Shown here one piece after another: positions 11,397 to 21,280 of a stretch of 21,328 nucleotides of DNA. Within the stretch, counting starts at the first letter, position 1, and each line of letters begins with the position of its first letter. A program made the translations under genes and the position numbers. Below the pieces are notes generated by a model, which made no database searches, was not told where the DNA came from, and saw only the letters and a list, made by a program, of their open reading frames with translations. The stretch is from IMG/VR virus record IMGVR_UViG_3300044825_002499, positions 1-21,328 of that record; one strand, 5' to 3'. This DNA comes from a virus.

Positions 11397-11402
11397 AGAC
11401 TA

Positions 11403-11877: not shown

Positions 11878-11882
11878 AGTTA

Positions 11883-11910: not shown

Positions 11911-11950
11911 AGAAACATACAAGTTAAACACAACACAAAGGAAAAAACGA

Positions 11951-12142
11951 ATGAACGAAACAGAATTCACAATGGTAGTAAACGGAGTCGAATACAAAGC
12001 CGTTTGGTTTGATAAAGAGGATGACCGTAAGGCTGAATGGTACATCAATCGCAATGGTGAAAAAATCGGCAAGTATGCTGGCTATCCTGCTGATAGAAAG
12101 CATGTAGAAAATTTTATCGAATTTTTTCTTGCAAGTAAGTAA
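11951..12142 (+). CDS. Small protein, paralogue family B (63 aa)
   Basis: 63 aa, ATG 11951 with AAAGGAA upstream, under promoter P4. Paralogous to the proteins at 14724 (67 aa) and 15530 (69 aa). Shared plan: a short first strand, NG-EYKA or GQQVEA, then a strand ending EWYI or EWFV, then (D/N)G(E/K)-IG (GEKIGKYAG here), and a C-terminal helix (VENFIEFFLAS). This reads as a small beta-hairpin plus helix fold. No known family. Three diverged copies in 4 kb, two under their own promoters, suggest amplification of a useful early effector, function unknown. Confidence 0.8.
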   Translation: MNETEFTMVVNGVEYKAVWFDKEDDRKAEWYINRNGEKIGKYAGYPADRKHVENFIEFFLASK

Positions 12143-12147
12143 AGGGC

Positions 12148-12175
12148 TTGACGGCTGTTGCCGATAAGTTACAAT
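12148..12175 (+). promoter_or_regulatory. Promoter P5 with GCCGATA spacer
   Basis: -35 TTGACG (12148-12153), 16-bp spacer with GCCGATA (12160-12166), -10 TACAAT (12170-12175). Nearly identical in layout to P8, including the TTGACGGC start. Confidence 0.82.
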
Positions 12176-12211
12176 AGAAACATACAACACAACACAAAAG
12201 GAAAAATAAAA

Positions 12212-12418
12212 ATGGCTAGATTCAAACCCTATGGCTCTGCTGCTAACAATTACAATGGTAGTGGAATGAATTATTATCGCGATTACAATACCGACCGCGA
12301 ATACGATTCCCGCAAAGATAGCTGGGAATTGGGCGATAAGCCCTTGACAGAAACACAACGCCGAGAGGATGAATCTTGGCGTGAAACATGCCGACAAAAT
12401 CGGCGTGGTGGTTGGTAG
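12212..12418 (+). CDS. Small Tyr/Asn/Arg-rich protein (68 aa)
   Basis: 68 aa from ATG 12212, preceded by AAGGA; an upstream in-frame ATG at 12158 lies inside promoter P5 and is not used. The N-terminal half is rich in Asn, Gly and Tyr (NNYNGSGMNYYRDYNTDREY) and looks disordered. The C-terminal half is charged, with many Arg and Glu and two Trp, ending CRQNRRGGW. Such composition suits a peptide that binds nucleic acid or a partner protein, but nothing specific is recognised. The stop overlaps an inverted repeat (12418-12431). Confidence 0.72.
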   Translation: MARFKPYGSAANNYNGSGMNYYRDYNTDREYDSRKDSWELGDKPLTETQRREDESWRETCRQNRRGGW

Positions 12419-12443
12419 TGTATAGCTACACTAGTGTACACTA
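12418..12443 (+). repeat. Palindromic sites before boundary element R1
   Basis: GTGTA-TAGC-TACAC (12418-12431) overlaps the perfect 12-bp palindrome TAGTGTACACTA (12432-12443) at its edge. The first is one of four GTGTAC-N4-GTACAC-like sites found just before boundary elements (see also 14271, 15805 and 21147). Confidence 0.6.
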
Positions 12444-12463
12444 TCTCACAACTCTAAACTGTT

Positions 12464-12535
12464 GACGTAAGTCCTAGTGCCGCAAGGACTTGCGACGGGC
12501 GCGGCCCGCCCAGCTTTGGACACCTTTGGTCCACG
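12464..12535 (+). repeat. Boundary element R1 (hairpin core then GC box)
   Basis: Imperfect hairpin CGTAAGTCCT and AGGACTTGCG around the loop AGTGCCGCA, then a GC-rich box GCGGCCCGCC, then TGGAC-ACCTTTG-GTCCA, a second hairpin. It is non-coding and lies about 40 bp before promoter P6. R2 and R3 share this order of modules. Confidence 0.8.
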
Positions 12536-12574
12536 AAAATTTCTAAAAAAATTTCTGTTTTTCGCTTCAGACTA

Positions 12575-12602
12575 TTGACAACGCTTGCCGATAGTGTATA
12601 AT
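12575..12602 (+). promoter_or_regulatory. Promoter P6 with GCCGATA spacer
   Basis: -35 TTGACA (12575-12580), 16-bp spacer with GCCGATA (12587-12593), -10 TATAAT (12597-12602). A/T-rich tract upstream may be an UP element. Confidence 0.9.
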
Positions 12603-12632
12603 AAGGACATACGAAACACGAAAGGAAAAACA

Positions 12633-12761
12633 ATGAAAAAAGTAACAGTCGAATTGGCCCAATATGCTTGTGGTGAATGGTACGAAATCAAGGTCAACGG
12701 AGTTGTTGTTGCTTGCTGTGGTACGCTTCACGGCGCGTTAGAAATTGCCAAAAATTCTTAA
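12633..12761 (+). CDS. Small protein of unknown function (42 aa)
   Basis: 42 aa, MKKVTVELAQYACGEWYEIK, then VNGVVVACCGT and a helix ALEIAKNS. Start ATG with AAAGGA upstream, directly under promoter P6 with the shared leader. The strand plan (WYEIKVNGVVVA) resembles the YING core of family A and of family B, so it may be a reduced relative, but the likeness is weak. Two adjacent Cys (29-30) stand out. Stop TAA 18 nt before the -35 of P7. Confidence 0.72.
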   Translation: MKKVTVELAQYACGEWYEIKVNGVVVACCGTLHGALEIAKNS

Positions 12762-12779
12762 AAAAATTGCTCAACTCTC

Positions 12780-12807
12780 TTGACAGCCCTTGCCGATACT
12801 GTATAAT
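12780..12807 (+). promoter_or_regulatory. Promoter P7 with GCCGATA spacer
   Basis: -35 TTGACA (12780-12785), 16-bp spacer with GCCGATA (12792-12798), -10 TATAAT (12802-12807), then AGAAGCATACGAAACACAAC leader. Confidence 0.9.
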
Positions 12808-12841
12808 AGAAGCATACGAAACACAACACAAGGAAACGAAA

Positions 12842-12997
12842 ATGACAACTGCAATGACAATCAACGGATTCACCTTCAAGCTCTGCAACGGTGAAAAGTC
12901 TTTCGCTGAACGATACTACCAAGCAACTAACGGTACAATCGTACTCACTTCAAAAAGCCTGAATTACTTGGTAAAAAAAATCAAGAAAATTTCCTAA
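12842..12997 (+). CDS. Small basic protein of unknown function (51 aa)
   Basis: 51 aa from ATG 12842, with AAGGAAA upstream; in-frame codons further upstream lie in the previous gene and promoter P7. The sequence has an N-terminal strand pair (MTINGFTFKLCNGEK), an aromatic middle (ERYYQATNG) and a Lys-rich tail (LNYLVKKIKKIS). Possible distant relative of the 69-aa protein at 11668. No family recognised. The stop lies in the CTAAAG box upstream of P8. Confidence 0.75.
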   Translation: MTTAMTINGFTFKLCNGEKSFAERYYQATNGTIVLTSKSLNYLVKKIKKIS

Positions 12998-13003
12998 AGG
13001 GGC

Positions 13004-13031
13004 TTGACGGCGATTGCCGATAGGTTATAAT
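13004..13031 (+). promoter_or_regulatory. Promoter P8 with GCCGATA spacer
   Basis: -35 TTGACG (13004-13009), 16-bp spacer with GCCGATA (13016-13022), -10 TATAAT (13026-13031). Close sequence twin of P5 although the genes that follow are unrelated. Confidence 0.86.
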
Positions 13032-13065
13032 AACAGCATACAACACACAATACAAGGAAAAGAAA

Positions 13066-13269
13066 ATGACTACTAAAAACGCAATCCAACAAACCGCTCT
13101 GCAATATCTTCCAGCCGTTACCGATTACAAGCTGATTAACGAACTGCAAACCCGCATTGTAGCCGACATCGTAGGTCATGAAAACGGACGCGGTTGTCTA
13201 AGTGCCGAATACATTGCCAAGCTAAACGCCCTTAATGACGCAATCAACGCCGTTAAGGTTCACTGGTAA
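13066..13269 (+). CDS. Small helical protein of unknown function (67 aa)
   Basis: 67 aa, ATG 13066 with AAGGAAA upstream, under P8. Mostly helical by eye: AIQQTALQYL, DYKLINELQTRIVADIV and a C-terminal helix YIAKLNALNDAINAVKVHW, joined by a Gly-rich turn (GHENGRGC). Nearly neutral, unlike many neighbours. No family recognised. The stop is followed four bases later by boundary element R2. Confidence 0.78.
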   Translation: MTTKNAIQQTALQYLPAVTDYKLINELQTRIVADIVGHENGRGCLSAEYIAKLNALNDAINAVKVHW

Positions 13270-13273
13270 CATC

Positions 13274-13344
13274 GACGCAAGTCCTAGAGCCTCAAAGACT
13301 TAGGACGGTCGCGGCCCGCCCGCCGTGGACACCTTTGGTCTGGC
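13274..13344 (+). repeat. Boundary element R2 (hairpin core then GC box)
   Basis: Core AAGTCCTAGAGCCTCAAAGA then TCGCGGCCCGCCCG and GGACACCTTTGGTC, as in R1 and R3. The stem has an A in place of G (AAGTCC against AGACTT), so the hairpin is imperfect while the loop TAGAGCC is kept. Precedes promoter P9. Confidence 0.8.
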
Positions 13345-13395
13345 AAGGAAAAAAAATTATTTCTGGAAAAATTCTGGATTTTAGGCTCAAGACTC

Positions 13396-13423
13396 TTGAC
13401 ATTTGCTGCCGATATGGTATAAT
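13396..13423 (+). promoter_or_regulatory. Promoter P9 with GCCGATA spacer
   Basis: -35 TTGACA (13396-13401), 16-bp spacer with GCCGATA (13408-13414), -10 TATAAT (13418-13423). An in-frame ATG (13430) lies at the predicted RNA start. Confidence 0.9.
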
Positions 13424-13453
13424 AGAAGCATGGAAAACAACAAGGAACAAAAC

Positions 13454-13612
13454 ATGAGCTACCAAATCATCGAAACCAAAACCAACAAGTCTCTCACCGG
13501 AAGTTTTTTCCGAGTTTACATCAACGGGTTTTGCGATGGTCGAATTTTCACCACACTTGAGGCAGCAGAAAAGTTTGCCCAAAATCAGAAAAAAGTTTAT
13601 CGCCGCTCTTGA
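13454..13612 (+). CDS. Small protein, paralogue family A (52 aa)
   Basis: 52 aa, MSYQIIETKTNKSLTGSFFR, then VYINGFCDGRIF and an EAAEKFAQ helix, ending VYRRS. Clear paralogue of the protein at 11452. ATG 13454 is chosen because AAGGAAC stands 6 nt before it; an ATG at 13430 at the RNA start would add eight residues. As in its paralogue, the TGA stop is inside the TTGACA of the next promoter (P10), so gene and following promoter may have been copied together. Function unknown. Confidence 0.8.
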   Translation: MSYQIIETKTNKSLTGSFFRVYINGFCDGRIFTTLEAAEKFAQNQKKVYRRS

Positions 13613-13636
13613 CACTGGCGAATCACAAGCTACAAT
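13609..13636 (+). promoter_or_regulatory. Promoter P10, without GCCGATA
   Basis: -35 TTGACA (13609-13614, containing the previous stop), 16-bp spacer, -10 TACAAT (13631-13636). The spacer ends AATCACAAGC instead of carrying GNCGATA; it resembles P15. Confidence 0.75.
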
Positions 13637-13667
13637 TCAAGCATACAAATCACACAAGGAAAACACA

Positions 13668-14021
13668 ATGAACACTCAAAAAGCAATCCGCGAATTTCAA
13701 GCCGCTATCGAAGCTGCAATCGTTATCCCCAACAGTTGGCTTCCTGCCGAACTGCAAGACCAAAAGCGTGGTGGTCGTACTGTTACCAAGCTGAACAAGC
13801 TGTTGGATAAACGCGATGGTATCACCGAACATCGCAAGCTCAAAGCAATCAAAGCTCGAAACATTGCTCGGCTTGCTGCTCAATTTGAAGCTGGTTGCGA
13901 ATCGTTCGACTATAGCGGTAACGAGCGTAACGAATTGCAACTCTACCGTAACGAGTGTGCAATGGTAGAGGGTATGATTCATGCTGGCCATATCGACGCT
14001 GATGATTTGGAAAATGAATAA
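13668..14021 (+). CDS. Helical protein of unknown function (117 aa)
   Basis: 117 aa from ATG 13668, with AAGGAAAA upstream; upstream in-frame codons belong to the previous gene and P10. Predicted almost all helical: AIREFQAAIEAAIVIPNSWL, a basic segment (DQKRGGRTVTKLNKLLDKR), HRKLKAIKARNIARLAAQFE and an acidic C-terminus (HIDADDLENE). Many Arg and Lys in the middle could contact nucleic acid. No family recognised. It is the largest gene in this block. Confidence 0.8.
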   Translation: MNTQKAIREFQAAIEAAIVIPNSWLPAELQDQKRGGRTVTKLNKLLDKRDGITEHRKLKAIKARNIARLAAQFEAGCESFDYSGNERNELQLYRNECAMVEGMIHAGHIDADDLENE

Positions 14022-14069
14022 TGAAAATATGGTGCAAAGGGTTCGTTACGAGTATTGACCTGAGTTAAA

Positions 14070-14098
14070 TGGTTGCTCTCTCAACCAGCCACTTTTTT
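14070..14098 (+). terminator. Possible terminator
   Basis: Perfect 6-bp hairpin TGGTTG-CTCTCT-CAACCA (14070-14087), then GCCAC and a six-T run (14093-14098). The T run is five bases from the stem, so efficiency is uncertain. It follows the gene ending at 14021. Confidence 0.5.
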
Positions 14099-14113
14099 CG
14101 TGGATGATTTATA

Positions 14114-14206
14114 ATGTTTCGCACTACTTTTTTTCTTGGATTTTGGGCCTTGATTTTATCGGCCCTTTTGTTTTTATTTTTAGATTTTATCAAATGGCTT
14201 TTATAA
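14114..14206 (+). CDS. Possible single-span membrane microprotein (30 aa)
   Basis: ATG 14114 opens a 30-codon frame, MFRTTFFLGFWALILSALLF and then LFLDFIKWLL, hydrophobic throughout with one basic residue near each end. This is what a one-helix membrane peptide (holin-like, toxin-like or envelope-acting) looks like. Only a weak ribosome site (GGAT) is present and no promoter was found between the hairpin at 14070 and the ATG, so expression is uncertain. AT-rich DNA can give such frames by chance. Confidence 0.35.
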   Translation: MFRTTFFLGFWALILSALLFLFLDFIKWLL

Positions 14207-14298
14207 TTGAACTTATCGAGCGTGTAATATTCTATATATCGGAATATGTCGATATATTAGAGCGGGCATAGTGTACAAGAGTATACAATAAAGCAATC
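14207..14298 (+). other. Non-coding segment with inverted repeats
   Basis: No gene seen. It contains an AT-rich inverted repeat, CTATATATCG (14232-14241) and CGATATATTAG (14250-14260), and GTGTAC-AAGA-GTATAC (14271-14286), one of the four GTGTAC-type sites found just before boundary elements. Confidence 0.5.
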
Positions 14299-14368
14299 GA
14301 CGTAAGTCTTAGAGCCGCAAGGACTTATGGCCGACGCGGCCCGCCCGCGACGGACACCTTTGGTCACG
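14299..14368 (+). repeat. Boundary element R3 (hairpin core then GC box)
   Basis: Core AAGTCTTAGAGCCGCAAGGA then ACGCGGCCCGCCCG and GGACACCTTTGGTC. Same order as R1 and R2, preceded by ATCGACG as R2 is. Precedes promoter P11 by 50 bp. Confidence 0.8.
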
Positions 14369-14418
14369 AAAACGCACAAAAATTCTTCCAAAAAAATCTT
14401 TTTTTCTGCTCAAGATGC

Positions 14419-14446
14419 TTGACAAACCTAGCCGATAATGTATAAT
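14419..14446 (+). promoter_or_regulatory. Promoter P11 with GCCGATA spacer
   Basis: -35 TTGACA (14419-14424), 16-bp spacer with GCCGATA (14431-14437), -10 TATAAT (14441-14446). Confidence 0.9.
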
Positions 14447-14485
14447 AAGGACATAACGCAACGACAATCTTTTGGAGAAAACACA

Positions 14486-14656
14486 ATGAACGACCTACTC
14501 GACATTCAATGCGACGAAGCCCCTTACATTCCAACCCAAGACGATTGGGCTGAGTTTGAGTTGTGGCTTGATGCTCAAGAGCGTCAAGAGCCAATCACGT
14601 TTGTTGTGGTTGGCGAAGATTTCCGCCCAGAAAATTGCGAAGATTGTCCTTTTTAG
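14486..14656 (+). CDS. Small acidic protein (56 aa)
   Basis: 56 aa from ATG 14486, with TGGAGAA upstream. About 16 Asp/Glu against two Arg and no Lys, so strongly negative. It begins MNDLLDIQCDEA, which matches the start of the very acidic protein at 16325 (MNSFDDIQSDEF). A central Trp-rich helix (DDWAEFELWLDAQE) is followed by a strand (ITFVVVGEDF) and a CEDC pair near the end. Acidic small phage proteins sometimes mimic DNA to block host nucleases, which is a possibility here, not a finding. Confidence 0.78.
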   Translation: MNDLLDIQCDEAPYIPTQDDWAEFELWLDAQERQEPITFVVVGEDFRPENCEDCPF

Positions 14657-14669
14657 TTCAAGATTGGGC

Positions 14670-14698
14670 TTGACAACGGACGATAAATAGAGTATACT
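14670..14698 (+). promoter_or_regulatory. Promoter P12 with shifted GACGATA
   Basis: -35 TTGACA (14670-14675), 17-bp spacer, -10 TATACT (14693-14698). The motif, here GACGATA (14679-14685), lies 7 nt from the -10 instead of 3, close behind the -35, as in P13 and P20. Confidence 0.82.
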
Positions 14699-14723
14699 TA
14701 AGACATAACAAAAGGATAAAGAT

Positions 14724-14927
14724 ATGAAGAATGAAATGAAATTTCGGTTTTACGGTCAACAAGTTGAAGCTATTTTGATTGACGGCGACCCTGAACGTCG
14801 CGACGAATGGTTCGTTAAAGTTGACGGTAAACAAATTGGCCGAATCTACGATTCTTGGCAAATTGATGAAACCGACATCATGCGGTTTGTCGAGAAAAAA
14901 ATTCTGGAAAGTTTGAAGGGTTGCTAA
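14724..14927 (+). CDS. Small protein, paralogue family B (67 aa)
   Basis: 67 aa, ATG 14724 with AAAGGATAAAG upstream, under P12. It follows the family B plan seen at 11951 and 15530: FYGQQVEAILIDGD, then RRDEWFVKVDGKQIGRIYD and a C-terminal helix (DIMRFVEKKILESLKGC). The EWFVKVDGKQIG segment aligns with EWYINRNGEKIG of the 11951 copy. Likely a small beta-sheet plus helix domain. No outside family recognised. Confidence 0.8.
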   Translation: MKNEMKFRFYGQQVEAILIDGDPERRDEWFVKVDGKQIGRIYDSWQIDETDIMRFVEKKILESLKGC

Positions 14928-14936
14928 AGTTTTGGC

Positions 14937-14964
14937 TTGACAACGCCGATAACTATAGTATAAT
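14937..14964 (+). promoter_or_regulatory. Promoter P13 with shifted GCCGATA
   Basis: -35 TTGACA (14937-14942), 16-bp spacer, -10 TATAAT (14959-14964). GCCGATA (14945-14951) starts only two bases after the -35. Confidence 0.87.
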
Positions 14965-14991
14965 AAGAGAGTAAAAGTTAAGGATAAAAAA

Positions 14992-15216
14992 ATGAAAACA
15001 CGAATCACAATCATCGAAAGCGACATTCTTGGCAGTTGGGATATTTACTGCAAGGGTCAATTGAAACACAGCGGGAAAAACAATCCTGCATCGCTCCGTT
15101 ATCGTGCGAAGTGCTTGGAAAATCTCAAGAAGTTTTACTCGGAAGTTTTTCCCAACGACGAAATCGAAGTCGTCATTATGAACACTGAAAACGTAACGGT
15201 AGTTCGTAACGTATAA
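14992..15216 (+). CDS. Small protein of unknown function (74 aa)
   Basis: 74 aa, ATG 14992 with AAGGATAAA upstream, under P13. An N-terminal strand pair (TRITIIESDILGSWDIYCKG) is followed by a basic helix (SLRYRAKCLENLKKFYSEVF) and a C-terminal strand (EIEVVIMNTENVTVVRNV). The pattern of strand pair, helix and strand again recalls families A and B. No family recognised. The next gene follows after 24 nt with its own ribosome site and no separate promoter, so they are likely co-transcribed. Confidence 0.78.
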   Translation: MKTRITIIESDILGSWDIYCKGQLKHSGKNNPASLRYRAKCLENLKKFYSEVFPNDEIEVVIMNTENVTVVRNV

Positions 15217-15240
15217 TAAACACACACACAAGGAAAAAAT

Positions 15241-15543
15241 ATGATTGAGCGACAAAAGTATATCAATGGCGAAGTAGGTCATCGCGAGTATTATGGCCAA
15301 TTTGTAAACGATACAATCAAAGCCCGATTGCTGCACTACATTGGCAAAAAACAATTGCTAGAATCTAAAGACAAGCATTTTAATGATATTCCATTGTGGA
15401 TGTGGGATAGAATCGACAATGGCAATCTTGGATTGACGCAAGCACTCCGAATTTCTGGCGATTGTATTACCAAAGCCGGTTTGGTTTGTATTTTCAAAGA
15501 AGCAGCACGACAAATTGTAGAGGCAGAAAATGAAGTGGCATAG
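15241..15543 (+). CDS. Protein of unknown function (100 aa)
   Basis: 100 aa, ATG 15241 with AAGGAAAA upstream. Mostly helical: YGQFVNDTIKARLLHYIGKK, then HFNDIPLWMWDRI and an ALRISGDCITKAGLVCIFKE segment leading to EAARQIVEAENEVA. The layout is similar to small phage proteins of unknown function seen widely, but no named family was recognised. Its 3' end overlaps the next gene by 14 nt, indicating translational coupling. Confidence 0.8.
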   Translation: MIERQKYINGEVGHREYYGQFVNDTIKARLLHYIGKKQLLESKDKHFNDIPLWMWDRIDNGNLGLTQALRISGDCITKAGLVCIFKEAARQIVEAENEVA

Positions 15544-15739
15544 TTTCAAATTTGACAATCACCAAGTTGATACTTTTATCGTCAAGTCGATTGCAACTGG
15601 TCGAAAGTATCTTGATATTGAACTCGACGGCGAATTTATTGGACAAGTCGCATACGATGGTTTCGATATACCCTTACAATCCGAAGTTGAATTGTACGTC
15701 GAAGAATATTTTTCTGAACTTGCATTGGGATACGAATAA
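15530..15739 (+). CDS. Small protein, paralogue family B (69 aa)
   Basis: 69 aa, ATG 15530 within the end of the previous gene; GAGGCAGAA upstream is a modest ribosome site. Third family B copy: FDNHQVDTFIVKS, then RKYLDIELDGEFIGQVAYDG and a helical end (EVELYVEEYFSELALGYE). It is more acidic than the other two and lacks its own GCCGATA promoter, being carried on the P13 transcript. This shows that family members have moved between promoter contexts. Confidence 0.78.
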   Translation: MKWHSFKFDNHQVDTFIVKSIATGRKYLDIELDGEFIGQVAYDGFDIPLQSEVELYVEEYFSELALGYE

Positions 15740-15805
15740 ATGGGAGCAATCATTGGGCTGATTTGCGCATACTATTTTGTGAAGTATATATTTTATTCCA
15801 ACTAG
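15740..15805 (+). CDS. Possible membrane microprotein (21 aa)
   Basis: ATG 15740 follows directly on the previous stop (TAA then ATG). The 21 residues, MGAIIGLICAYYFVKYIFYS plus Asn, form one hydrophobic helix. GGGA lies nine bases upstream, so coupled translation is plausible. No promoter of its own. Very short, so chance cannot be excluded; the stop TAG merges with the palindrome at 15805. Confidence 0.4.
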   Translation: MGAIIGLICAYYFVKYIFYSN

Positions 15806-15873
15806 TGTACAGCCGTACACTCGCGGGGCCGCGCCGCCGAGCCATAAGTCCTAGAGCCACAAGCACTTACGAC
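15805..15873 (+). repeat. GTGTAC palindrome and boundary element R4 (GC box then hairpin core)
   Basis: GTGTAC-AGCC-GTACAC (15805-15820), a perfect inverted repeat, abuts R4 (15822-15873). In R4 the GC-rich box (GGGGCCGCGCCGCCGAG) comes before the core AAGTCCTAGAGCCACAAGCA, the reverse of the order in R1-R3. The stem is broken (AAGTCC against GCACTT). Precedes promoter P14. Confidence 0.78.
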
Positions 15874-15920
15874 AACGAACAAAAAATAAAAAATAATTTC
15901 TTTTTTTTCTGCTAAAGCTC

Positions 15921-15948
15921 TTGACATTCTCTAGCCGATAAGTATAAT
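15921..15948 (+). promoter_or_regulatory. Promoter P14 with GCCGATA spacer
   Basis: -35 TTGACA (15921-15926), 16-bp spacer with GCCGATA (15934-15940), -10 TATAAT (15943-15948). The gene start lies only 10 bases past the -10. Confidence 0.9.
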
Positions 15949-15957
15949 AGAAACACA

Positions 15958-16188
15958 ATGTTCAAGTGCGTTGTCACTGAATATTACGGCCCGTTCAATG
16001 GGTTTGGCGGTTATGGCTCCTACACCAAAGTAGGCTTTAATCGTTCACCCAAACGAGCGGTCGAAATTGCGAAGTCCACAAGACCTCACGCAGTTTCCGT
16101 CACCAACGATTGCGGTGGTGGCGTTCCGATTCTAGGTCAGTTTTCGCTGTACAAAAACGGCAAACTGATTCTAGATCGTTGGAATTAG
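15958..16188 (+). CDS. Small Gly-rich protein, probably leaderless (76 aa)
   Basis: 76 aa. The ATG at 15958 is 9 nt after the -10 of P14, so the RNA would have only about 2-3 bases before the start codon and no ribosome site: a leaderless message. No later ATG fits. The protein opens MFKCVVTEYYGPFNGFGGYG and continues with KVGFNRSPKRAVEIAKSTRP, a Gly/Asn/Cys turn (TNDCGGGVP) and a final strand pair (QFSLYKNGKLILDRWN). Basic, likely alpha/beta. No family recognised. Confidence 0.8.
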   Translation: MFKCVVTEYYGPFNGFGGYGSYTKVGFNRSPKRAVEIAKSTRPHAVSVTNDCGGGVPILGQFSLYKNGKLILDRWN

Positions 16189-16204
16189 CCGTAATACGAA
16201 GCGT

Positions 16205-16220
16205 CACTGGTTAGCCAGTG
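16205..16220 (+). other. Stem-loop after the leaderless gene
   Basis: Perfect inverted repeat CACTGG-TTAG-CCAGTG. It is followed by TGGAGATTTT, so a weak terminator or an mRNA-stabilising hairpin is possible. Confidence 0.45.
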
Positions 16221-16263
16221 TGGAGATTTTGCCCTTTCTCTGTCGGAAATTACTCATTAGGGC

Positions 16264-16291
16264 TTGACAATTCCAATTCACACGTTACAAT
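16264..16291 (+). promoter_or_regulatory. Promoter P15, without GCCGATA
   Basis: -35 TTGACA (16264-16269), 16-bp spacer, -10 TACAAT (16286-16291). Like P10 it has CACA about 3-6 bases before a TACAATT -10 and a downstream CAATCAC or AAATCAC. The two form a minor class. Confidence 0.75.
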
Positions 16292-16324
16292 TTAACTATC
16301 AATCACGCACTTTTGGAGATAGCT

Positions 16325-16498
16325 ATGAACAGCTTCGACGACATTCAATCCGACGAATTCGACCCACGCGATTATTACCACACCGCCGACTTAGAGTATT
16401 TCGAGGATTTCGACGACAACTTTGACCCGCACGAACGCGACCCGTACTACAGCGAGTACACCGACGATGGGTACTACGACGAAGTAGATTTTTACTAA
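16325..16498 (+). CDS. Extremely acidic, Tyr-rich small protein (57 aa)
   Basis: 57 aa from ATG 16325, with TTTGGAGAT upstream; the in-frame TTG at 16313 overlaps the ribosome site and is not used. It holds 21 Asp/Glu, 2 Arg, no Lys, and 15 Phe/Tyr, a net charge near -19. Starts MNSFDDIQSDEFDPRDYYHT, the first part matching the acidic protein at 14486. The rest alternates acidic and aromatic residues (FEDFDDNFDPHERDPYYSEY). Such composition is typical of DNA-mimic inhibitors of restriction, nucleoid or CRISPR proteins, but disorder is equally possible. Under its own promoter P15. Confidence 0.78.
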   Translation: MNSFDDIQSDEFDPRDYYHTADLEYFEDFDDNFDPHERDPYYSEYTDDGYYDEVDFY

Positions 16499-16689
16499 TC
16501 GGGAAAAGTGGTGTGTGAGAACACCAAGCGCGTAACACCGCTTAACGGCTCCACACTGAAAGGAGTACGGCCACGAAGTACCATTTGTCTTTGCCAAACT
16601 ACACGGAGTCTTTTGCTTCGCGTGGCCAAAATCCCATGATTTGTCTCTGCTTAACTATGCAGAGTTTTGCGCGAGCGTGGCCGATTTCC
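16499..16689 (+). ncRNA. Structured non-coding region with tandem repeat
   Basis: No credible gene in 190 bases; it would be the 3' part of the P15 transcript or a separate RNA. Hairpins: GGTGT-GTGAGA-ACACC (16512-16527), AAGCG and CGCTT (around 16528-16545), and GGCCACGAAG (16569-16578) with CTTCG-CGTGGCC (16616-16627). Two related units, 16583-16627 and 16639-16682 (56 bp apart), both run TTTGTCT to GCGTGGCC. Each has a central hairpin: CUUUG with CGGAG in the first, CUCUGC with GCAGAG in the second, so pairing is kept while sequence differs. Either GCGTGGCC copy could pair with GGCCACG. Hypothesis only. Confidence 0.45.
16583..16682 (+). repeat. Two-unit diverged tandem repeat
   Basis: Units of about 45 bp at 16583-16627 and 16639-16682, period 56 bp, both opening ATTTGTC and closing CGTGGCC. 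Diverged in the middle. Confidence 0.65.
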
Positions 16690-16740
16690 GGGGCGCGGCC
16701 CGCCGAGTCGCAAGTCCTAGAGCCACAAGGAGTTACGGCA
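16690..16740 (+). repeat. Boundary element R5 (GC box then hairpin core)
   Basis: GGGGCGCGGCCCGCCGAG then core AAGTCCTAGAGCCACAAGGA with mismatched stem end (GGAGTT). Same module order as R4, R6 and R7. Precedes P16 by 34 bp. Confidence 0.8.
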
Positions 16741-16774
16741 GGGAAAAATAATTCTTTTTTTTGTGCTAAAGTTC

Positions 16775-16802
16775 TTGACATTGCGTGCCGATAATGTATA
16801 CT
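16775..16802 (+). promoter_or_regulatory. Promoter P16 with GCCGATA spacer
   Basis: -35 TTGACA (16775-16780), 16-bp spacer with GCCGATA (16787-16793), -10 TATACT (16797-16802). Predicted RNA start at about 16809, the first base of the three-way RNA. Confidence 0.88.
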
Positions 16803-16808
16803 ATGAGA

Positions 16809-16884
16809 GTCGCCGCAGATTGCAGAAGGTTCACCCGAAGCAATTAAACACTGAATCAACAGTTGGTTTCTGCGGTGACTTTTT
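16809..16884 (+). ncRNA. Three-way-junction leader RNA ending in a U-run
   Basis: The predicted P16 transcript begins at 16809 with GTCGCCGCAG, which pairs with CTGCGGTGAC (16870-16879, one G-U pair), directly followed by five U. Inside, ATTGC (16819-16823) pairs with GCAAT (16840-16844), and AAACACTG (16846-16853) pairs with CAGTTGGTTT (16860-16869) with a two-base bulge. The helices meet almost without unpaired joints. The outer helix plus U-run looks like an intrinsic terminator. The operon starting at 16903 has no other promoter, so the RNA may be an attenuator, antiterminator or processed small RNA. Seen by eye, not folded by program. Confidence 0.65.
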
Positions 16885-16902
16885 AATTTAAGGAGAATGA
16901 GC

Positions 16903-17061
16903 GTGAGAGTTTACATTGTGGTTTGCTACAAACAAGTTGGTGCGGCAAGTTTTCATTATGTTTGCGATGTACAATCTTTCGACACTGTTGACAAAGCCAT
17001 TGCATATGGTAAAAATGGCAAGTGGGACGATTATCAAATCTTTGAGAGGAACGTAAAGTGA
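16903..17061 (+). CDS. Small protein, paralogue family D (52 aa)
   Basis: 52 aa from GTG 16903, with AAGGAG 7 nt upstream; the ATG at 16897 is too close to the ribosome site. Sequence: MRVYIVVCYKQVGAASFHYV, then a helix (DTVDKAIAYGKNG) and an end KWDDYQIFERNVK. Paralogous to the next protein (45 aa): both have V-VVVC near the start and DD(Y/W)-(Q/E)-(I/V)-(F/Y)-ER near the end. First gene of a six-gene co-transcribed set up to 18332 behind the P16 leader RNA. Stop overlaps the next start as GTGA. Function unknown. Confidence 0.8.
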   Translation: MRVYIVVCYKQVGAASFHYVCDVQSFDTVDKAIAYGKNGKWDDYQIFERNVK

Positions 17062-17195
17062 AAGTTTTCGTTGTTGTTTGTTGGCGTAGTCAGGCTGTTG
17101 TAAATGTTGGCGTATTTACCAACAAGCAGGCGGCAAATGCTTTTGGTGAACGATACGACGATTGGGAAGTTTACGAACGAGAAGTAGACGATTAA
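17058..17195 (+). CDS. Small protein, paralogue family D (45 aa)
   Basis: 45 aa from GTG 17058, which overlaps the previous stop; GAGAGGAAC lies upstream. MKVFVVVCWRSQAVVNVGVF, then helix KQAANAFGERY and end DDWEVYEREVDD. A shortened paralogue of the 52-aa protein just before it, so a tandem duplication. Predicted small alpha/beta protein; role unknown. Confidence 0.78.
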   Translation: MKVFVVVCWRSQAVVNVGVFTNKQAANAFGERYDDWEVYEREVDD

Positions 17196-17211
17196 AGTAG
17201 GAGAACGTAAA

Positions 17212-17580
17212 GTGAACGCAAAGTATTACATTTACTGGAACTTACATAAAAAGTGCTTTAGTGCAAAATATCGCGGTAAAGTTATAAAGCATTTTCACAA
17301 TGCCATTGTTGCTGTGCCTGAATTTAGAGTATCGGCAGCAGGCCGCGAACGTGTACGACGCGAACGCAAAAAGACCGTTCACGCCTACATTGTATCCAAC
17401 TATGTAAATGTTCAGTGTCCGAATTTTGTTCCAGTTTTTGATACTCAGCCAGCCCGTACTGCAAAATATAATCCGTATGTAAACGAAAGTTTTGTTGACA
17501 ACGAGGGCAACGCATTGTATAATGCACATGAAGCGAGGTTGAGTATTTTTAACGGCAAACCAGTAATTGAGGTTGTATGA
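17212..17580 (+). CDS. Conserved-type phage protein of unknown function (122 aa)
   Basis: 122 aa from GTG 17212, with TAGGAGAAC upstream. Contains YIYWNLHKKCFSAKYRGKVI, then EFRVSAAGRERVRRERKKTV leading to HAYIV, and later YNPYVNESFVDNEGNALYNA. The WNLHKKCFS, the basic AGRxRVRRERKKxVHAYIV stretch and the NPY-FV motif look familiar from small proteins of unknown function in other tailed phages, recalled from memory rather than searched. The Arg/Lys cluster may bind nucleic acid or a negatively charged partner. In the P16 operon. Confidence 0.85.
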   Translation: MNAKYYIYWNLHKKCFSAKYRGKVIKHFHNAIVAVPEFRVSAAGRERVRRERKKTVHAYIVSNYVNVQCPNFVPVFDTQPARTAKYNPYVNESFVDNEGNALYNAHEARLSIFNGKPVIEVV

Positions 17581-17581
17581 C

Positions 17582-17782
17582 ATGAGAATCAATCCAGTAA
17601 ATCGTGACGAAATTCAGAATCGTTATATTCGACAACTTGTAGAAGGTATGGACGTTCAGGCTCTTATCGACCACGTTATATCTTCACTAGAAGTTGATTA
17701 CAGTCATTACAGCAACACAGAACTTGAGGATGAAATCCTAGATTATTACGGCGAAGATTTTGAATGGGAGGTTGAGAACTAA
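17582..17782 (+). CDS. Small acidic helical protein (66 aa)
   Basis: 66 aa. ATG 17582 is preferred: GAGG lies 11 nt upstream, and frames further up overlap the previous gene. MRINPVNRDEIQNRYIRQLV, then EGMDVQALIDHVISSLEVDY and an acidic end DEILDYYGEDFEWEVEN. Helical by eye. The form (a short helix, then a Leu/Glu-rich helix with a final acidic tail) recurs among uncharacterised phage proteins, but no named family is assigned. Stop overlaps the next start by one base (TAATG). Confidence 0.8.
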   Translation: MRINPVNRDEIQNRYIRQLVEGMDVQALIDHVISSLEVDYSHYSNTELEDEILDYYGEDFEWEVEN

Positions 17783-18018
17783 TGCGAGACGTTTATTTAG
17801 ATTTTGGCGGGTGGCTTAAACTTGATGCCAATACCCGTATGCAGTATATTGGGAACGATGAACGATTCGACCCAATTATCACCGTTGCGGTTTGGCAGTC
17901 GCTGCCAGAAGAAAATCGTGGCGAATATATCCTAGAGGATTTCGTTGCGGCTGTTCGCGACAGCGAAGATATTGAGTTTAATGAATTGACAATCACAGAA
18001 GCGGAGATTGTAGACTAA
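17782..18018 (+). CDS. Small acidic protein of unknown function (78 aa)
   Basis: 78 aa, ATG 17782 in TAATG with the previous stop; GGGAGG upstream serves as ribosome site. MRDVYLDFGGWLKLDANTRM, then FDPIITVAVWQSLPEENRGE and an acidic end (EFNELTITEAEIVD). Coupled translation with both neighbours. No family recognised. Confidence 0.8.
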   Translation: MRDVYLDFGGWLKLDANTRMQYIGNDERFDPIITVAVWQSLPEENRGEYILEDFVAAVRDSEDIEFNELTITEAEIVD

Positions 18019-18332
18019 TGCGATACCATCAAAAATTAGCGGTAGAAAATTACGTTGTAGACACAATGCAAATGTTGTGCAATACCCCAAATGCGGAGGG
18101 TGCAGATATTGAATTTGACCAAAGTGTAGATTTTGGCAACGGATATATCATGGATATTCAGGTTTGTCAAGGTGATGATGGATACTGGACGCAAGGCGTT
18201 TTGTATCGCAAGTCAGACGATGTTTATATTGAGGTTACTTGTACCGACGTTGGAGAAAGTTTCGAGGGCGAATACTGTGTACAGTACGGCGACAATGAAT
18301 ATGTTGGAGAAATTGTCAGAAAAAACGCTTGA
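18018..18332 (+). CDS. Acidic beta-rich protein of unknown function (104 aa)
   Basis: 104 aa, ATG 18018 in TAATG; GCGGAGA upstream. After an N-terminal helix (LAVENYVVDTMQMLCNT) the rest alternates short strands: GNGYIMDIQVCQGDDGYW, QGVLYRKSDDVYIEV, GEYCVQYGDNEYVGEIV. Three further Cys in the strands. Last gene of the P16 operon. The TGA stop lies inside the TTGACA of P17, so gene end and promoter share bases. No family recognised. Confidence 0.82.
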   Translation: MRYHQKLAVENYVVDTMQMLCNTPNAEGADIEFDQSVDFGNGYIMDIQVCQGDDGYWTQGVLYRKSDDVYIEVTCTDVGESFEGEYCVQYGDNEYVGEIVRKNA

Positions 18333-18356
18333 CATTCCCGGAACGCGATGTATAAT
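18329..18356 (+). promoter_or_regulatory. Promoter P17 with GAACGCGATG spacer
   Basis: -35 TTGACA (18329-18334, containing a stop), 16-bp spacer ending GAACGCGATG, -10 TATAAT (18351-18356). P18 shares these ten spacer bases and no other promoter does. Confidence 0.85.
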
Positions 18357-18361
18357 AAAAT

Positions 18362-18622
18362 AACTGGGAAGGTGGGATTAGAAGTGTCCATCCTCTAAAG
18401 AGTAGTGATACCCGCGTGTGACCTGAGACAAGTTGACCTACATCAACTCTCTGAACGAAAGAACTGGAATTGTAGGCGAAAACAAATAATGCTCAAGAAA
18501 TTAACAAGAATATCCGGTTTGTAATTGTTAATTGAAGGCTAAGTTGTTAAGAAAAAAGGTTGCGAGGGCGTGCGGTGGAAAAAGACCAATAGCTTTTGGT
18601 GTAACAACACACCCAGTTTTTT
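18362..18622 (+). ncRNA. About 260-nt structured leader or small RNA
   Basis: P17 should start RNA at about 18362. The first bases AACTGGG (18362-18368) pair perfectly with CCCAGTT (18612-18618), and a U-run follows, so the RNA is closed by its own ends. Internal hairpins: AGTTGA-CCTACA-TCAACT (about 18433-18450), AATTAACAA with TTGTTAATT (about 18498-18534), CCAA-TAGCTT-TTGG (about 18586-18599). GGTGT-AACAAC-ACACC (18598-18613) is a competing terminator hairpin. No long frame; a small ATG frame (18489, MLKKLTRISGL) lies within. The gene at 18652 has no other promoter. It does not look like tmRNA, RNase P or 6S by eye. Confidence 0.65.
18598..18622 (+). terminator. Terminator of the long structured RNA
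   Basis: Hairpin GGTGT-AACAAC-ACACC followed by CAG and six T (18617-18622). It shares bases with the end-closing helix of the RNA at 18362, so only one of the two can form at a time. Confidence 0.6.
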
Positions 18623-18651
18623 ATATTTATTAAATTAAAAGGAGAAACGAA

Positions 18652-18933
18652 ATGAAAGTTGAACTAATAGACGCAGAGCCTGATTTCAAGCCCGTCACCA
18701 TCAGCATCACCATTGAATCGCTTGCCGAACTCGGTGTGCTTTATGGGCGGTTTAATTGTCCAGTTTCGATTGTTAAACAGTATGGCTTTGGTGCTGACCC
18801 AATTAGCGGCAGACTCGCAAGAGCGGCAGATTTTAGCATCGAAGATACCCATGAAAGCTACAGAGTTTTCGACTACATCGCAGACATAGCTAAAGGCTAT
18901 CATAATAAAAAACTGGGCCTTGACATTCTTTGA
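18652..18933 (+). CDS. Small protein of unknown function (93 aa)
   Basis: 93 aa, ATG 18652 with AAGGAG 8 nt upstream. MKVELIDAEPDFKPVTISIT and then IESLAELGVLYGRFNCPVSI, with a later acidic helical part (DTHESYRVFDYIADIAKGYH). The opening F-PV-ISITIES-AEL-LY-FN pattern recurs in small uncharacterised phage proteins. Transcription must come through the structured RNA upstream, because no promoter lies between. The last codons run over the -35 of P18. No named function. Confidence 0.8.
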   Translation: MKVELIDAEPDFKPVTISITIESLAELGVLYGRFNCPVSIVKQYGFGADPISGRLARAADFSIEDTHESYRVFDYIADIAKGYHNKKLGLDIL

Positions 18934-18947
18934 ACGCGATGTATAAT
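18920..18947 (+). promoter_or_regulatory. Promoter P18 with GAACGCGATG spacer
   Basis: -35 TTGACA (18920-18925), 16-bp spacer ending GAACGCGATG, -10 TATAAT (18942-18947). It starts within the coding end of the previous gene. Confidence 0.85.
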
Positions 18948-18968
18948 GAAGGAAAAGGAGAACGCAAC

Positions 18969-19112
18969 GTGAAAATTGTAATTAGAAAAGTAGCAACCGG
19001 CCACAATCCGCCCGCATTTCGCTGCGGCAAGTGGCAAGATGCCCGCAAACGTCGCGAGCGTACACGCTCTGCCCAGCGACAAAAGTGGCAAAAGTTTCAA
19101 GAAACCACTTGA
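18969..19112 (+). CDS. Small highly basic protein (47 aa)
   Basis: 47 aa from GTG 18969, with AAGGAG 8 nt upstream. 14 Lys/Arg against 3 acidic residues, net charge about +11. After VKIVIRKVATGHNPPAFRCG comes a basic helix, DARKRRERTRSAQRQKWQKF. This composition suits nucleic acid or ribosome binding. Its stop TGA falls in TTGACA (19109-19114) that has no -10 after it: element R6 begins 10 bases further on. No family recognised. Confidence 0.75.
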   Translation: MKIVIRKVATGHNPPAFRCGKWQDARKRRERTRSAQRQKWQKFQETT

Positions 19113-19114
19113 CA
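19109..19114 (+). promoter_or_regulatory. Orphan -35 hexamer TTGACA
   Basis: A perfect TTGACA that also holds the TGA stop of the previous gene, but where the -10 should be lies the GC-rich start of element R6. It looks like a promoter broken by insertion or rearrangement at R6. Confidence 0.45.
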
Positions 19115-19124
19115 AAAACCAAAA

Positions 19125-19177
19125 CCGGCCCGCCCGCCGAGCCGCAAGTCCTAGAGCCTCAAGGACTTACAACAACG
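19125..19177 (+). repeat. Boundary element R6 (GC box then hairpin core)
   Basis: CCGGCCCGCCCGCCGAG followed by AAGTCCTAGAGCCTCAAGGA and CTTACAACAACG. The stem AAGTCC with GGACTT is perfect here. Same order as R4, R5 and R7. Upstream of P19. Confidence 0.82.
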
Positions 19178-19198
19178 CCCTAGAGCAAATGCCATGCC

Positions 19199-19275
19199 AT
19201 TCCCGCTCGGGACAATTCCAGCCAGTTCACACACTTTTTCCCGTTCGGGAATACAAAAACTTTTTTATTTTTTTT
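19199..19275 (+). terminator. Two small hairpins and T-rich tract
   Basis: TCCCG-CT-CGGGA (near 19201) and TTCCCG-TT-CGGGAA (near 19239) are similar palindromes; the second is followed by ACAAAAAC and long T runs. They may end incoming transcripts before P19. Loops of two bases are short, so the DNA palindrome itself may matter. Confidence 0.45.
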
Positions 19276-19287
19276 CGCTCAAGTCTA

Positions 19288-19315
19288 TTGACCTTGGTGG
19301 TCGATAAAGTATAAT
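19288..19315 (+). promoter_or_regulatory. Promoter P19 with GTCGATA spacer
   Basis: -35 TTGACC (19288-19293), 16-bp spacer with GTCGATA (19300-19306), -10 TATAAT (19310-19315). Drives the amidoligase and amidotransferase genes. Confidence 0.86.
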
Positions 19316-19354
19316 GAGCGAGTAAGTCACACACACTGTTTTAAGGAGAATCAA

Positions 19355-20179
19355 ATGCCTCGCGTTTCTAATCCCAATGTTTTGCCTGCTCTCAAGGTTT
19401 GCAAGAATCCTAATTGTGGGATGGTTGCCACTAGCTTTGACGGTTTATGTCCTGCTCACGCTCCTATTCGTCGTCTCAAAAATTACACTTCGCGTCCTCG
19501 CGTACCGCGTGCGGCTCGCAATCCTATCGGTGTCGAACTAGAGATGCAGAATCGCCAGCGTCTCAACAATCTCACCACTGTTGCCCGTTTCGTTTGCTCA
19601 GACGGTAGTATAGGCTATGACGGTGGCGAAATCAAGCTGGTTCAAGATGCCGCCAAGATTAGCAATCTCGCAGCCGATACCGCTCAACGTGCGGCACTCG
19701 CAGGCTGCGAAGCCGACAAGCGATGCGGTTTTCATGTTCACCTCGGATTAGATAATAACCAGTACCGCATGATTCACAACGACCCACAAGCTGTCAATCG
19801 TTTGTATGCTGCGGTCAAGCATGTCGAATCATACTTTTTCGATATTATGCCTCGCAGTCGTCGCAGAAATCAATACTGCACTACTGTTGACTGTAACTCC
19901 AGTTTGTTCAATCATTATAGTTGGGTTAGCTTGTCTCGGCGTGTTCCAACTATTGAGATTCGCATTCACGGAGGAACAACCAACGCATGGAAGGTGAAAG
20001 CATGGGTTGACGTTTGTATCGAACTCAAAAAGTATTTTGTGAACGCTATCGAAAATACGGTTAATTACTGCGTGTACAACGAACGATTCAGTCGCAATTT
20101 ACCAACTGGCTCACTCGCACAAAAATATCTGCTTGCCCGCGAAAATGCTGGCGGCAGTCTCAAAAAGTTTGGTTTCTAA
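19355..20179 (+). CDS. Amidoligase-family enzyme with N-terminal zinc-binding motif
   Basis: 274 aa, ATG 19355 with AAGGAG upstream, under P19. Residues 16-35 hold C-x4-C-x10-C-x2-H, a small zinc-binding knuckle. The rest fits the glutamine-synthetase-fold amidoligase family: GVELEMQ (59-65), SDGSIG (82-87), GGEIK (90-94), GFHVHLGLD (125-133), with the HxH pair, and EIRIHGGT (201-208). Acidic and His residues of these motifs bind metal and ATP in the family, which joins a carboxylate to an amine, making isopeptide or amide bonds. The class II glutamine amidotransferase next to it is a typical partner. Substrate unknown: a peptide, host protein or cell-surface or nucleotide metabolite are all possible. 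Confidence 0.88.
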   Translation: MPRVSNPNVLPALKVCKNPNCGMVATSFDGLCPAHAPIRRLKNYTSRPRVPRAARNPIGVELEMQNRQRLNNLTTVARFVCSDGSIGYDGGEIKLVQDAAKISNLAADTAQRAALAGCEADKRCGFHVHLGLDNNQYRMIHNDPQAVNRLYAAVKHVESYFFDIMPRSRRRNQYCTTVDCNSSLFNHYSWVSLSRRVPTIEIRIHGGTTNAWKVKAWVDVCIELKKYFVNAIENTVNYCVYNERFSRNLPTGSLAQKYLLARENAGGSLKKFGF

Positions 20180-20216
20180 GTTTTGTTTTTCACACACTCA
20201 CTAGGAGAATTTTACA

Positions 20217-21089
20217 ATGTGTCGTTTAGCTTATATTCCCGGCAAGGCAAAAGTCAATCGTACCGATTTGGTAGACTTGTTACATATGTTGGAAAAAAGT
20301 TGTGGCGGTGACGGTAACGGTTTCTTTGCTGTATCGCCAACCGGCGAAGTATTCAGCGAGAAGGGTTTGAAGCTCGATTGCTGCACTATCGTTGCCAAGG
20401 TTTGGAAACTTATCAAGAATGGCTGGGATGTATATTTCCACACTCGCAAGGTTAGCGTAGGCTGGAAGTCTGACCATCAATGCCATCCGTTCAAAATTGA
20501 AGGTAAAAAGTTTACTGGCTGGTTATGCCATAACGGAACGTGGCGTGACGGTGTTCCACTCGCCAATTATCTTGGTTGCGGCAGCGATACCGCAGCACTC
20601 GCCAAGGTCATCGGCAAGTTTGGAATTGAAGGTGCGGAAAAGCGTGACCTATTCCCATCGTCTGGCATTTTCCTGATTTACGGCAGCGAGAACGGCGAAA
20701 CTCCGATTCATCGCGTTATCAAGAAAGCCGGTGACTTGCAGTATTGCCCCAAAACTGGTATTTGGGCAAGCGAGTTTGACAAAGATTGGCCGTACTGGTC
20801 GCAAGTTTATACTGCAACTGTTGGCAAGCATTTACTATGCAAGCCAGCACCGCAATATATTCCACCGGCACGTTCAAACAACGGGAGGTTTATTCCGAGT
20901 CGCACTAACAGTCATCGCGATATTATTGATTCTGGTATTCCTGCTCCTTGGGATTCCGAGTCTGTTGTAGAAAACAGACAGACCCGTTTGTGGGAACGTC
21001 TGTGGCCTGATAATCCAGAGTCAACAGATTATGAGCATGAACCAGAATGGGAATATCGCGGAGGTTATCCAAAACGCGATTTGAAATAG
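20217..21089 (+). CDS. Class II glutamine amidotransferase
   Basis: 290 aa, ATG 20217 with AGGAGAA upstream, 37 nt after the amidoligase. N-terminal nucleophile fold: the protein starts Met-Cys, so Cys2 would become the N-terminal nucleophile after Met removal. Further signatures: GGDGNGFF (30-37), HTRKVSVG (75-82), CHPF (89-92), CHNGTWRDG (104-112) and SDTAAL (123-128). All are standard for the glutaminase domain that takes the amide from glutamine. The last 90 residues (about 215-290) are Pro/Arg/Trp-rich and specific to this protein. With the amidoligase it probably transfers or activates nitrogen for an amide-forming modification. Confidence 0.92.
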   Translation: MCRLAYIPGKAKVNRTDLVDLLHMLEKSCGGDGNGFFAVSPTGEVFSEKGLKLDCCTIVAKVWKLIKNGWDVYFHTRKVSVGWKSDHQCHPFKIEGKKFTGWLCHNGTWRDGVPLANYLGCGSDTAALAKVIGKFGIEGAEKRDLFPSSGIFLIYGSENGETPIHRVIKKAGDLQYCPKTGIWASEFDKDWPYWSQVYTATVGKHLLCKPAPQYIPPARSNNGRFIPSRTNSHRDIIDSGIPAPWDSESVVENRQTRLWERLWPDNPESTDYEHEPEWEYRGGYPKRDLK

Positions 21090-21094
21090 TGTGT

Positions 21095-21112
21095 TGTGTG
21101 TGTGTGTGTGTG
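21095..21112 (+). repeat. (TG)9 simple repeat
   Basis: Nine TG units shortly after the amidotransferase stop, preceded by TGTGT. It may vary in length; no function seen. Confidence 0.85.
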
Positions 21113-21126
21113 ATGCTCGGCAGTTG

Positions 21127-21142
21127 CGGGACGCGAGTCCCG
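21127..21142 (+). other. Stem-loop with GCGA tetraloop
   Basis: CGGGAC-GCGA-GTCCCG, a perfect 6-bp stem closed by a GNRA-type loop. No T-run follows, so perhaps an RNA-stabilising 3' hairpin rather than a terminator. Confidence 0.6.
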
Positions 21143-21146
21143 TAGC

Positions 21147-21214
21147 TGTACGGGCGTACACTACGCGGGCCGCCCGCTCGCGTCCTAAGTCCTAGAGCCT
21201 CAAGGAGTTACGGC
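21147..21214 (+). repeat. GTGTAC-type palindrome and boundary element R7
   Basis: TGTAC-GGGC-GTACA (21147-21160), then a GC box GCGGGCCGCCCGC and core AAGTCCTAGAGCCTCAAGGA with GAGTTACGGCAAG, as in R5. Same arrangement as R4, a palindrome beside the element. Precedes P20. Confidence 0.78.
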
Positions 21215-21252
21215 AAGAAAGAAAATTTTCAGAATTTCCTAAAGCTTTACCC

Positions 21253-21280
21253 TTGACATGGCCGATATGTATAGTATACT
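21253..21280 (+). promoter_or_regulatory. Promoter P20 with shifted GCCGATA
   Basis: -35 TTGACA (21253-21258), 16-bp spacer, -10 TATACT (21275-21280). GCCGATA (21261-21267) lies two bases after the -35, as in P13. It serves a gene beyond the right edge. Confidence 0.86.

Follow-up and report, generated by a model that had tools for sequence, protein, structure and literature searches.

Introduction

What happens at an early phage promoter when the RNA that leaves it can close its own 5' end with an 11-bp helix, directly before a run of U and the ribosome site of the first gene? This question is raised by a locus in the 21,328-base virus record IMGVR_UViG_3300044825_002499. The whole record was analysed and is called the window here. 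A sequence-only reading had described the RNA at 16809-16884, termed RNA 1 in the following, as a three-way junction that starts exactly at a promoter, ends in a U-run and heads a six-gene operon. RNA 1 probably acts either as a weak intrinsic stop signal or as a protector of the 5' end.

The source virus is a tailed phage known solely via environmental DNA. One strand of the window carries the genes for terminase, portal, a ClpP-like protease and a sigma-region-2 protein, and the opposite strand a long series of small early genes. The terminase has at least 598 confirmed relatives among environmental viruses, of which 80 were kept. Isolated phages contributed distant relatives alone, with less than 60% identity (40 records). 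The closest relative used, G002, is the 148-kb record IMGVR_UViG_3300044631_002422, and its terminase is 95% identical to that of the window. Genome bins that contain terminase relatives belong to SAR202, Gemmataceae and Flavobacteriales. Since these bins disagree, no host is claimed for the phage. A literature search yielded no report of a comparable leader from this group of phages. Within the collections searched, RNA 1 is new by sequence and ordinary by kind.

The promoter, the leader and the downstream genes

The following features of RNA 1, its operon and the next unit are needed below:

16775-16802, + strand: sigma70-type promoter TTGACA-16-TATACT, near-consensus, with GCCGATA spacer element; homologous to the G002 promoter L205:2578-2605
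16808-16880, + strand: leader RNA 1, 73 nt, closed three-way-junction fold (predicted fold, ensemble, shuffles)
16808-16818, + strand: 5' arm of the closing helix P1, AGTCGCCGCAG (ensemble fold)
16819-16844, + strand: hairpin P2, 5 bp plus inner GG/CC (helix 16819-16823/16840-16844)
16846-16869, + strand: hairpin P3 with a 2-nt bulge (helix 16846-16853/16860-16869)
16870-16880, + strand: 3' arm of P1, CTGCGGTGACT; its last base is the first T of the run 16880-16884 (ensemble fold)
16880-16889, + strand: U-run TTTTTAATTT, with five U at 16880-16884 and 7 U in 9 (read from the sequence)
16890-16895, + strand: Shine-Dalgarno sequence AAGGAG of gene 1, beginning 5 nt past the five U (read from the sequence)
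16903-17061, + strand: gene 1, 52 aa, GTG start
17058-17195, + strand: gene 2, 45 aa (read from the sequence)
17212-17580, + strand: gene 3, similar to mycobacteriophage L5 gp82 (PF25735, phrog_586); G002 homologue 57%
17495-17523, + strand: second promoter-like site TTGACA-17-TATAAT (12/12 consensus), inside gene 3 and ahead of genes 4-6
17582-17782, 17782-18018 and 18018-18332, + strand: genes 4, 5 and 6; gene 4 is phrog_1352
18329-18356, + strand: promoter of the next unit, TTGACA-16-TATAAT
18362-18618, + strand: leader RNA 2, 257 nt; AACTGGG at its 5' end pairs with CCCAGTT (18612-18618), followed by TTTT
18652-18933, + strand: gene whose G002 homologue (68%) is directly driven by the homologue of the 16775 promoter

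Five bases separate the promoter from AGTCGCCGCAG. GCCGATA or a one-base variant stands at a near-fixed position between -35 and -10 in 16 of the 27 promoter-like sites of the window; these 16 are spread over 11154-21280. The same promoter pattern occurs in at least 118 stretches of viral contigs. A regulator of the phage or of the host possibly binds to this element. The wider phage group comprises 201 promoter-like sites with a GNCGATA spacer element, 155 of which have a gene start at most 400 bases away. By a crude start rule, the leader is shorter than 40 nt at 101 of these 155. A hairpin repeat, AAGTCCTAGAGCCNCAAGGACTTA, is present seven times in the window (12469, 13279, 14304, 15846, 16712, 19146, 21187; none expected from shuffles) and also in G002. 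Most copies adjoin GC-rich GGCCCGCC stretches and lie upstream of a promoter. The noncoding stretch 16580-16690 upstream of the RNA 1 promoter contains, by eye, a tandem near-duplicate of about 45 bases (ATTTGTCT..GCGTGGCC).

The claim that the six-gene operon lacks any other promoter has become doubtful, yet it is not disproved, as the third gene contains the 12/12 site 17495-17523. In G002, both hexamers of this site are intact, though the spacer codons have changed. In five more distant homologues it is absent at that place, and three of the five carry a 10/12 match at a later point in the gene. Because it does not carry the GYCGATA-type spacer element, the site may or may not be active.

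RNA 1 is predicted to close on itself

The RNA 16809-16884 folds with -25.3 kcal/mol (z -3.21), and one of 200 shuffles was as good. This bears out the structured fold that had been read from the letters. The expected helix between the predicted start of the RNA and the segment before the five U is present as well: P1 comprises 11 pairs, 7 of them GC, or 10 pairs if the first U is counted to the U-run, and a T follows directly. Ten of the 11 pairs have ensemble probabilities of 0.95-1.0, and the terminal A-U pair has 0.64-0.75. The inner helices are softer in the model (P2 0.45-0.85; P3 0.58-0.78 at the tip and 0.18-0.34 at the base), whereas the closing helix is firm. Therefore, the tight junction proposed earlier holds for the minimum-energy fold, which has one unpaired base there, but not for the ensemble. 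Similarly, the helix at the first RNA base was recovered, while the exact start, 16808 or 16809, is a prediction from the position of the -10 box.

Folding of the growing transcript predicts an order of events. P2 forms at 38 nt, the tip of P3 at 56 nt and P1 at 68-74 nt. P1 would be complete at 74 nt, which coincides with the copying of the U-run.

A closed junction that precedes the genes of an operon could point to a riboswitch or to an attenuator under protein control, with P1 being set by a ligand or protein bound to P2/P3. A 10-bp helix that would disrupt P1 does exist (16819-16828/16867-16876). The energies are -25.8 kcal/mol for the best fold, -11.8 for this alternative and -15.4 with the 5' arm blocked. 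No antiterminator fold close in energy was found for RNA 1, the best competitor being 14 kcal/mol worse instead of comparable. Furthermore, no leader ORF with a ribosome site is seen in RNA 1, Rfam returned no match either for the whole window at gathering scores or for 15800-19400 up to E = 1, and there is no relative with different downstream genes that would indicate a common aptamer. Such a conditional terminator is thus improbable, and the switch suggested by the sequence-only reading has found no support.

A comparison with phage HK022 had also been drawn. HK022 put RNA binds the zinc-binding domain of the beta' subunit of RNA polymerase. Its putL is about 70 nt long and located just after an early promoter, and put RNA consists of two adjacent stem-loops (PMC9378689). 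RNA 1 resembles putL in length and in its location directly past an early phage promoter. In contrast to the two adjacent stem-loops described there, the 5' and 3' ends of RNA 1 are joined by P1, and a U-run follows. A put RNA has neither closing helix nor U-run, and an antiterminator acting on its own transcribing polymerase would need the opposite of a U-run right after a helix. In addition, HK022 was absent from the blastn matches of 16760-16910 against 50,697 phage records. A put-like function is extremely improbable.

RNA 1 compared with chance and with other leaders

The geometry of RNA 1 was defined by three features: a helix with a minimum of 8 pairs, 5 or more of them GC; a helix start 4-9 nt past the -10 box; and a helix end at TTTT. 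None of 20,000 dinucleotide shuffles of 16803-16902 reproduced it. Among positions displaced from promoters in related phages, one of 10,752 has, at the corresponding place, a helix with 9 or more pairs including 5 GC. Twenty promoter-driven leaders of the window were folded at 80 nt each (one at only 43 nt because of the contig end). RNA 1 yielded z -3.35 and the other 19 between -0.39 and +1.89, so that by this folding model it is the only structured leader among the 20. RNA 1 is a real, isolated and unusual structured leader.

These results also bear on a trivial explanation, a palindromic DNA site or chance fold devoid of RNA function. The P1 arms are at the same time an inverted DNA repeat beside the promoter, and no conservation could be shown. 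The absence of the geometry from all shuffles, the additional inner helices and a second nearby unit with the same layout argue against this explanation and render it very improbable.

A second unit with the same layout

The next unit (18362-18618) repeats the layout of RNA 1, which is a new observation. RNA 2 starts 5 bases past its promoter, and its 7-bp end-to-end helix joins arms that are some 250 bases apart. The ribosome site of the 18652 gene follows about 20 bases beyond the TTTT. The end-to-end helix with UUUU was matched in 2 of 5,000 shuffles. It alone is notable, as RNA 2 as a whole folds no better than shuffles (z -0.46, 62/200). A convincing match to RNA 2 was not found elsewhere.

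How frequent is this layout? Once 28 loci that duplicated others or formed part of them had been set aside, the related phages and the window offered 1,568 promoter-like sites followed by sufficient sequence. Four of them are followed by an end-to-end helix before a U-run: RNA 1, RNA 2, one tRNA gene (L138) and one RNA of 287 nt (L161). At displaced positions, 24 of 10,752 have this arrangement. If the U-run is disregarded, closed leaders occur at 7 of 198 sites compared with 9-17 of 187-197 displaced ones, and an earlier, looser scan for closed leaders likewise found no enrichment after promoters. Hence, these counts do not support end-closed leaders as a general class associated with this type of promoter, and the case rests on the two sites of the window. 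At the displaced rate, about 0.04 such sites would be expected in 20 promoters, and 2 were found.

Other closed RNAs were encountered in these phages. The 287-nt RNA on the minus strand of L161, after a promoter at reverse-strand offset 7981, has paired ends and a U-run, folds with -99.8 kcal/mol (z -2.5) and has no Rfam match. The tRNA-like RNAs L205:10791-10917 and L218:5049-5174 have paired ends and a T-arm-like hairpin followed by a U-run. In both, a long insert replaces the other arms, and the L205 one was not called by ARAGORN. A closed multi-branch RNA on the minus strand of L206 (11500-11600) directly follows a promoter of the same class as that of RNA 1. It has a long end-to-end stem with one interruption, no U-run, and a further promoter before the next gene.

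Could RNA 1 be a stand-alone, trans-acting small RNA of 75-80 nt that ends by termination at P1, the downstream genes being expressed by leak and perhaps from the 17495 promoter? Related phages place tRNA genes and one tRNA-like RNA a few bases past such promoters, with a U-run at the end, and in L206 the gene after the closed RNA has a promoter ahead of it. The phage tRNA genes (tRNA-Thr in L138, tRNA-Lys in L087) share with RNA 1 the start a few bases past the -10 box, the paired ends and the U-run. In contrast to them, RNA 1 is no tRNA according to ARAGORN. Between RNA 1 and gene 1 there is no promoter, the ribosome site of gene 1 adjoins the U-run, and no sequence relative of RNA 1 was found in any collection searched. 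We regard this reading as rather unlikely and rank it third, after a weak terminator and a 5'-end protector.

The latter is the close rival. Here, P1 would shield the 5' end of the message from 5'-end-dependent decay, and the U-run would be an A/U-rich stretch before the ribosome site. For 5'-terminal stabilising stem-loops, a longer half-life of the message is expected. Bacterial mRNAs of the ompA and papA type are stabilised by 5'-terminal stem-loops, and 5'-end hairpins can stabilise mRNA and impede RppH (PMC3997798). Like these, RNA 1 has a paired 5' end and a free ribosome site: P1 begins at most one base from the predicted start and leaves no free 5' tail. RNA 1 differs from the ompA/papA type by its three helices and the adjoining U-run. 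TTTT is found at most 20 nt upstream in 3 others of the 19 listed ribosome-site contexts of the phage. Therefore, the U-run of RNA 1 could belong to the ribosome site. On the other hand, U-runs directly adjoin both P1 and the RNA 2 helix, although protection requires none, and the 19 other leaders tested manage without structure. A function limited to 5'-end protection is possible, but considered doubtful.

Comparison with G002 and searches for relatives

The phage G002 allows us to delimit the segment in which RNA 1 resides. Window 16693-16803 aligns with L205:2497-2606 of G002 (79%) and ends one base past the -10 box. Alignment resumes at 18628-18903 with L205:2629-2904 (83%), and on the left side further matches are collinear. 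Between the two blocks, the window has 1,824 bases with RNA 1, six genes, a promoter and RNA 2, whereas G002 has 22. This means that in G002 the promoter drives the homologue of the 18652 gene directly. Relative to G002, the segment in question is 1.8 kb long (16804-18627), with RNA 1 at one edge and RNA 2 at the other. The G002 homologues of genes 3 and 4 (57% and 50%) are found elsewhere, in another operon (L205:7346-8124). RNA 1 itself was not detected in G002 by a covariance model search. Similar copies of both the promoter and its upstream repeat are numerous, and recombination among them would account for a segment border located precisely at the promoter. It is conceivable that RNA 1 and RNA 2 gate exchangeable cassettes, in which case the end helices would be terminators opened by a phage or host factor to release initially silent cassettes. 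We consider this quite improbable, slightly more so than a ligand- or protein-controlled switch.

Three further observations concern RNA elements of these phages. In L032, a 58-nt closed RNA (z -1.96) lies between a promoter of the same class and a gene. The G002 homologue of this gene (53% over 64 residues) has a promoter at L205:5139-5166 and a short leader only. The L032 RNA may be a parallel to RNA 1, not evidence for common descent, as its sequence is unrelated by eye. G002 encodes a Pistol self-cleaving ribozyme between small early genes (L205:3605-3666; Rfam RF02679, 47.7 bits, E 2e-5). Finally, a simple hairpin terminator with T7 at window 10963-11000 is common to both phages, and its stem bases have changed and are still paired.

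Searches for the sequence of RNA 1 were negative throughout. An exact 24-mer had no match in viral contigs. The blastn search with 16760-16910 against the phage records covered at most 17% of the query, a blast search against 299 sequences matched only the window itself beyond 18 nt, and one over 50 records returned pieces of 14-21 nt only. The one perfect 18-nt match, in L207, was taken as chance, since it falls inside an open reading frame, on a contig of 180 kb, and has no 5' arm. The covariance model R1 is a weak probe, as its input was a single sequence entered twice. Over 189 sources (89 + 100, including the window), its best non-self match (E 0.1) was the opposite strand of its own site, and the remaining matches were short hairpins with E of at least 0.74. 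Over 100 whole related records it found nothing, the window's own record being recovered as a control in the second batch only. The candidates from L032, L072 and L120 (z -1.96, -1.63 and -1.32) have by eye no sequence in common with RNA 1 and were not counted as relatives. Identity with tRNA or tmRNA was rejected, as ARAGORN called no gene in the window. For self-cleaving ribozymes, no Rfam covariance model matched the window, in contrast to G002 with its Pistol.

Discussion

The preferred reading, with a probability of about 0.42, is that RNA 1 is a lineage-specific 5' leader of an early operon in which P1 and the U-run constitute a weak to moderate promoter-proximal intrinsic terminator with read-through. 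Transcription would start at 16808/16809. P2 and P3 can form first and would bring the 5' end beside the 3' arm as it emerges; the 11-bp P1 would thus close while the polymerase copies UUUUUAAUU. Together with the U-run, P1 would act as an intrinsic terminator with moderate efficiency. Some transcripts would stop there and yield an end-paired RNA of about 78 nt, and the others would continue into the ribosome site of gene 1.

This reading is suggested by two successive units that each begin with an RNA whose closing helix adjoins a U-run. An intrinsic terminator requires a GC-rich helix directly before a U-run, and P1 followed by TTTTT has this composition. P1 is predicted to be completed as the U-run is copied, the RNA 2 unit repeats the layout, and the 19 other leaders of the window are unstructured. 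Moreover, the only one of the four layout sites with a known identity, that in L138, is a stable RNA gene. A simple terminator scan missed RNA 1 because it permits loops of 3-8 only. Several points argue against termination. A gene with a good ribosome site, which presumably must be expressed, adjoins the U-run. The latter is short compared with the T7 of the terminator shared with G002 and could be a feature of the ribosome site. No relative of RNA 1 was found that would show covariation, and the layout is not enriched after promoters.

Promoter-proximal intrinsic attenuators likewise have a GC-rich helix directly before a U-run upstream of the first gene. RNA 1 differs from them in two respects: its helix is not a simple hairpin, but the closing stem of a junction at the predicted transcript start, and no competing antiterminator of similar energy was found. 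Accordingly, from the earlier alternatives, a terminator-like leader or small RNA with read-through is still the best description, whereas the conditional part has found no support.

If RNA 1 is only a protector of the 5' end, it is ordinary. If P1 works as a terminator, the phage would have a compact means of drawing two products, an end-paired small RNA and a metered message, from a single promoter. Such a scheme, if true, would belong to a group of phages whose small early units are numerous.
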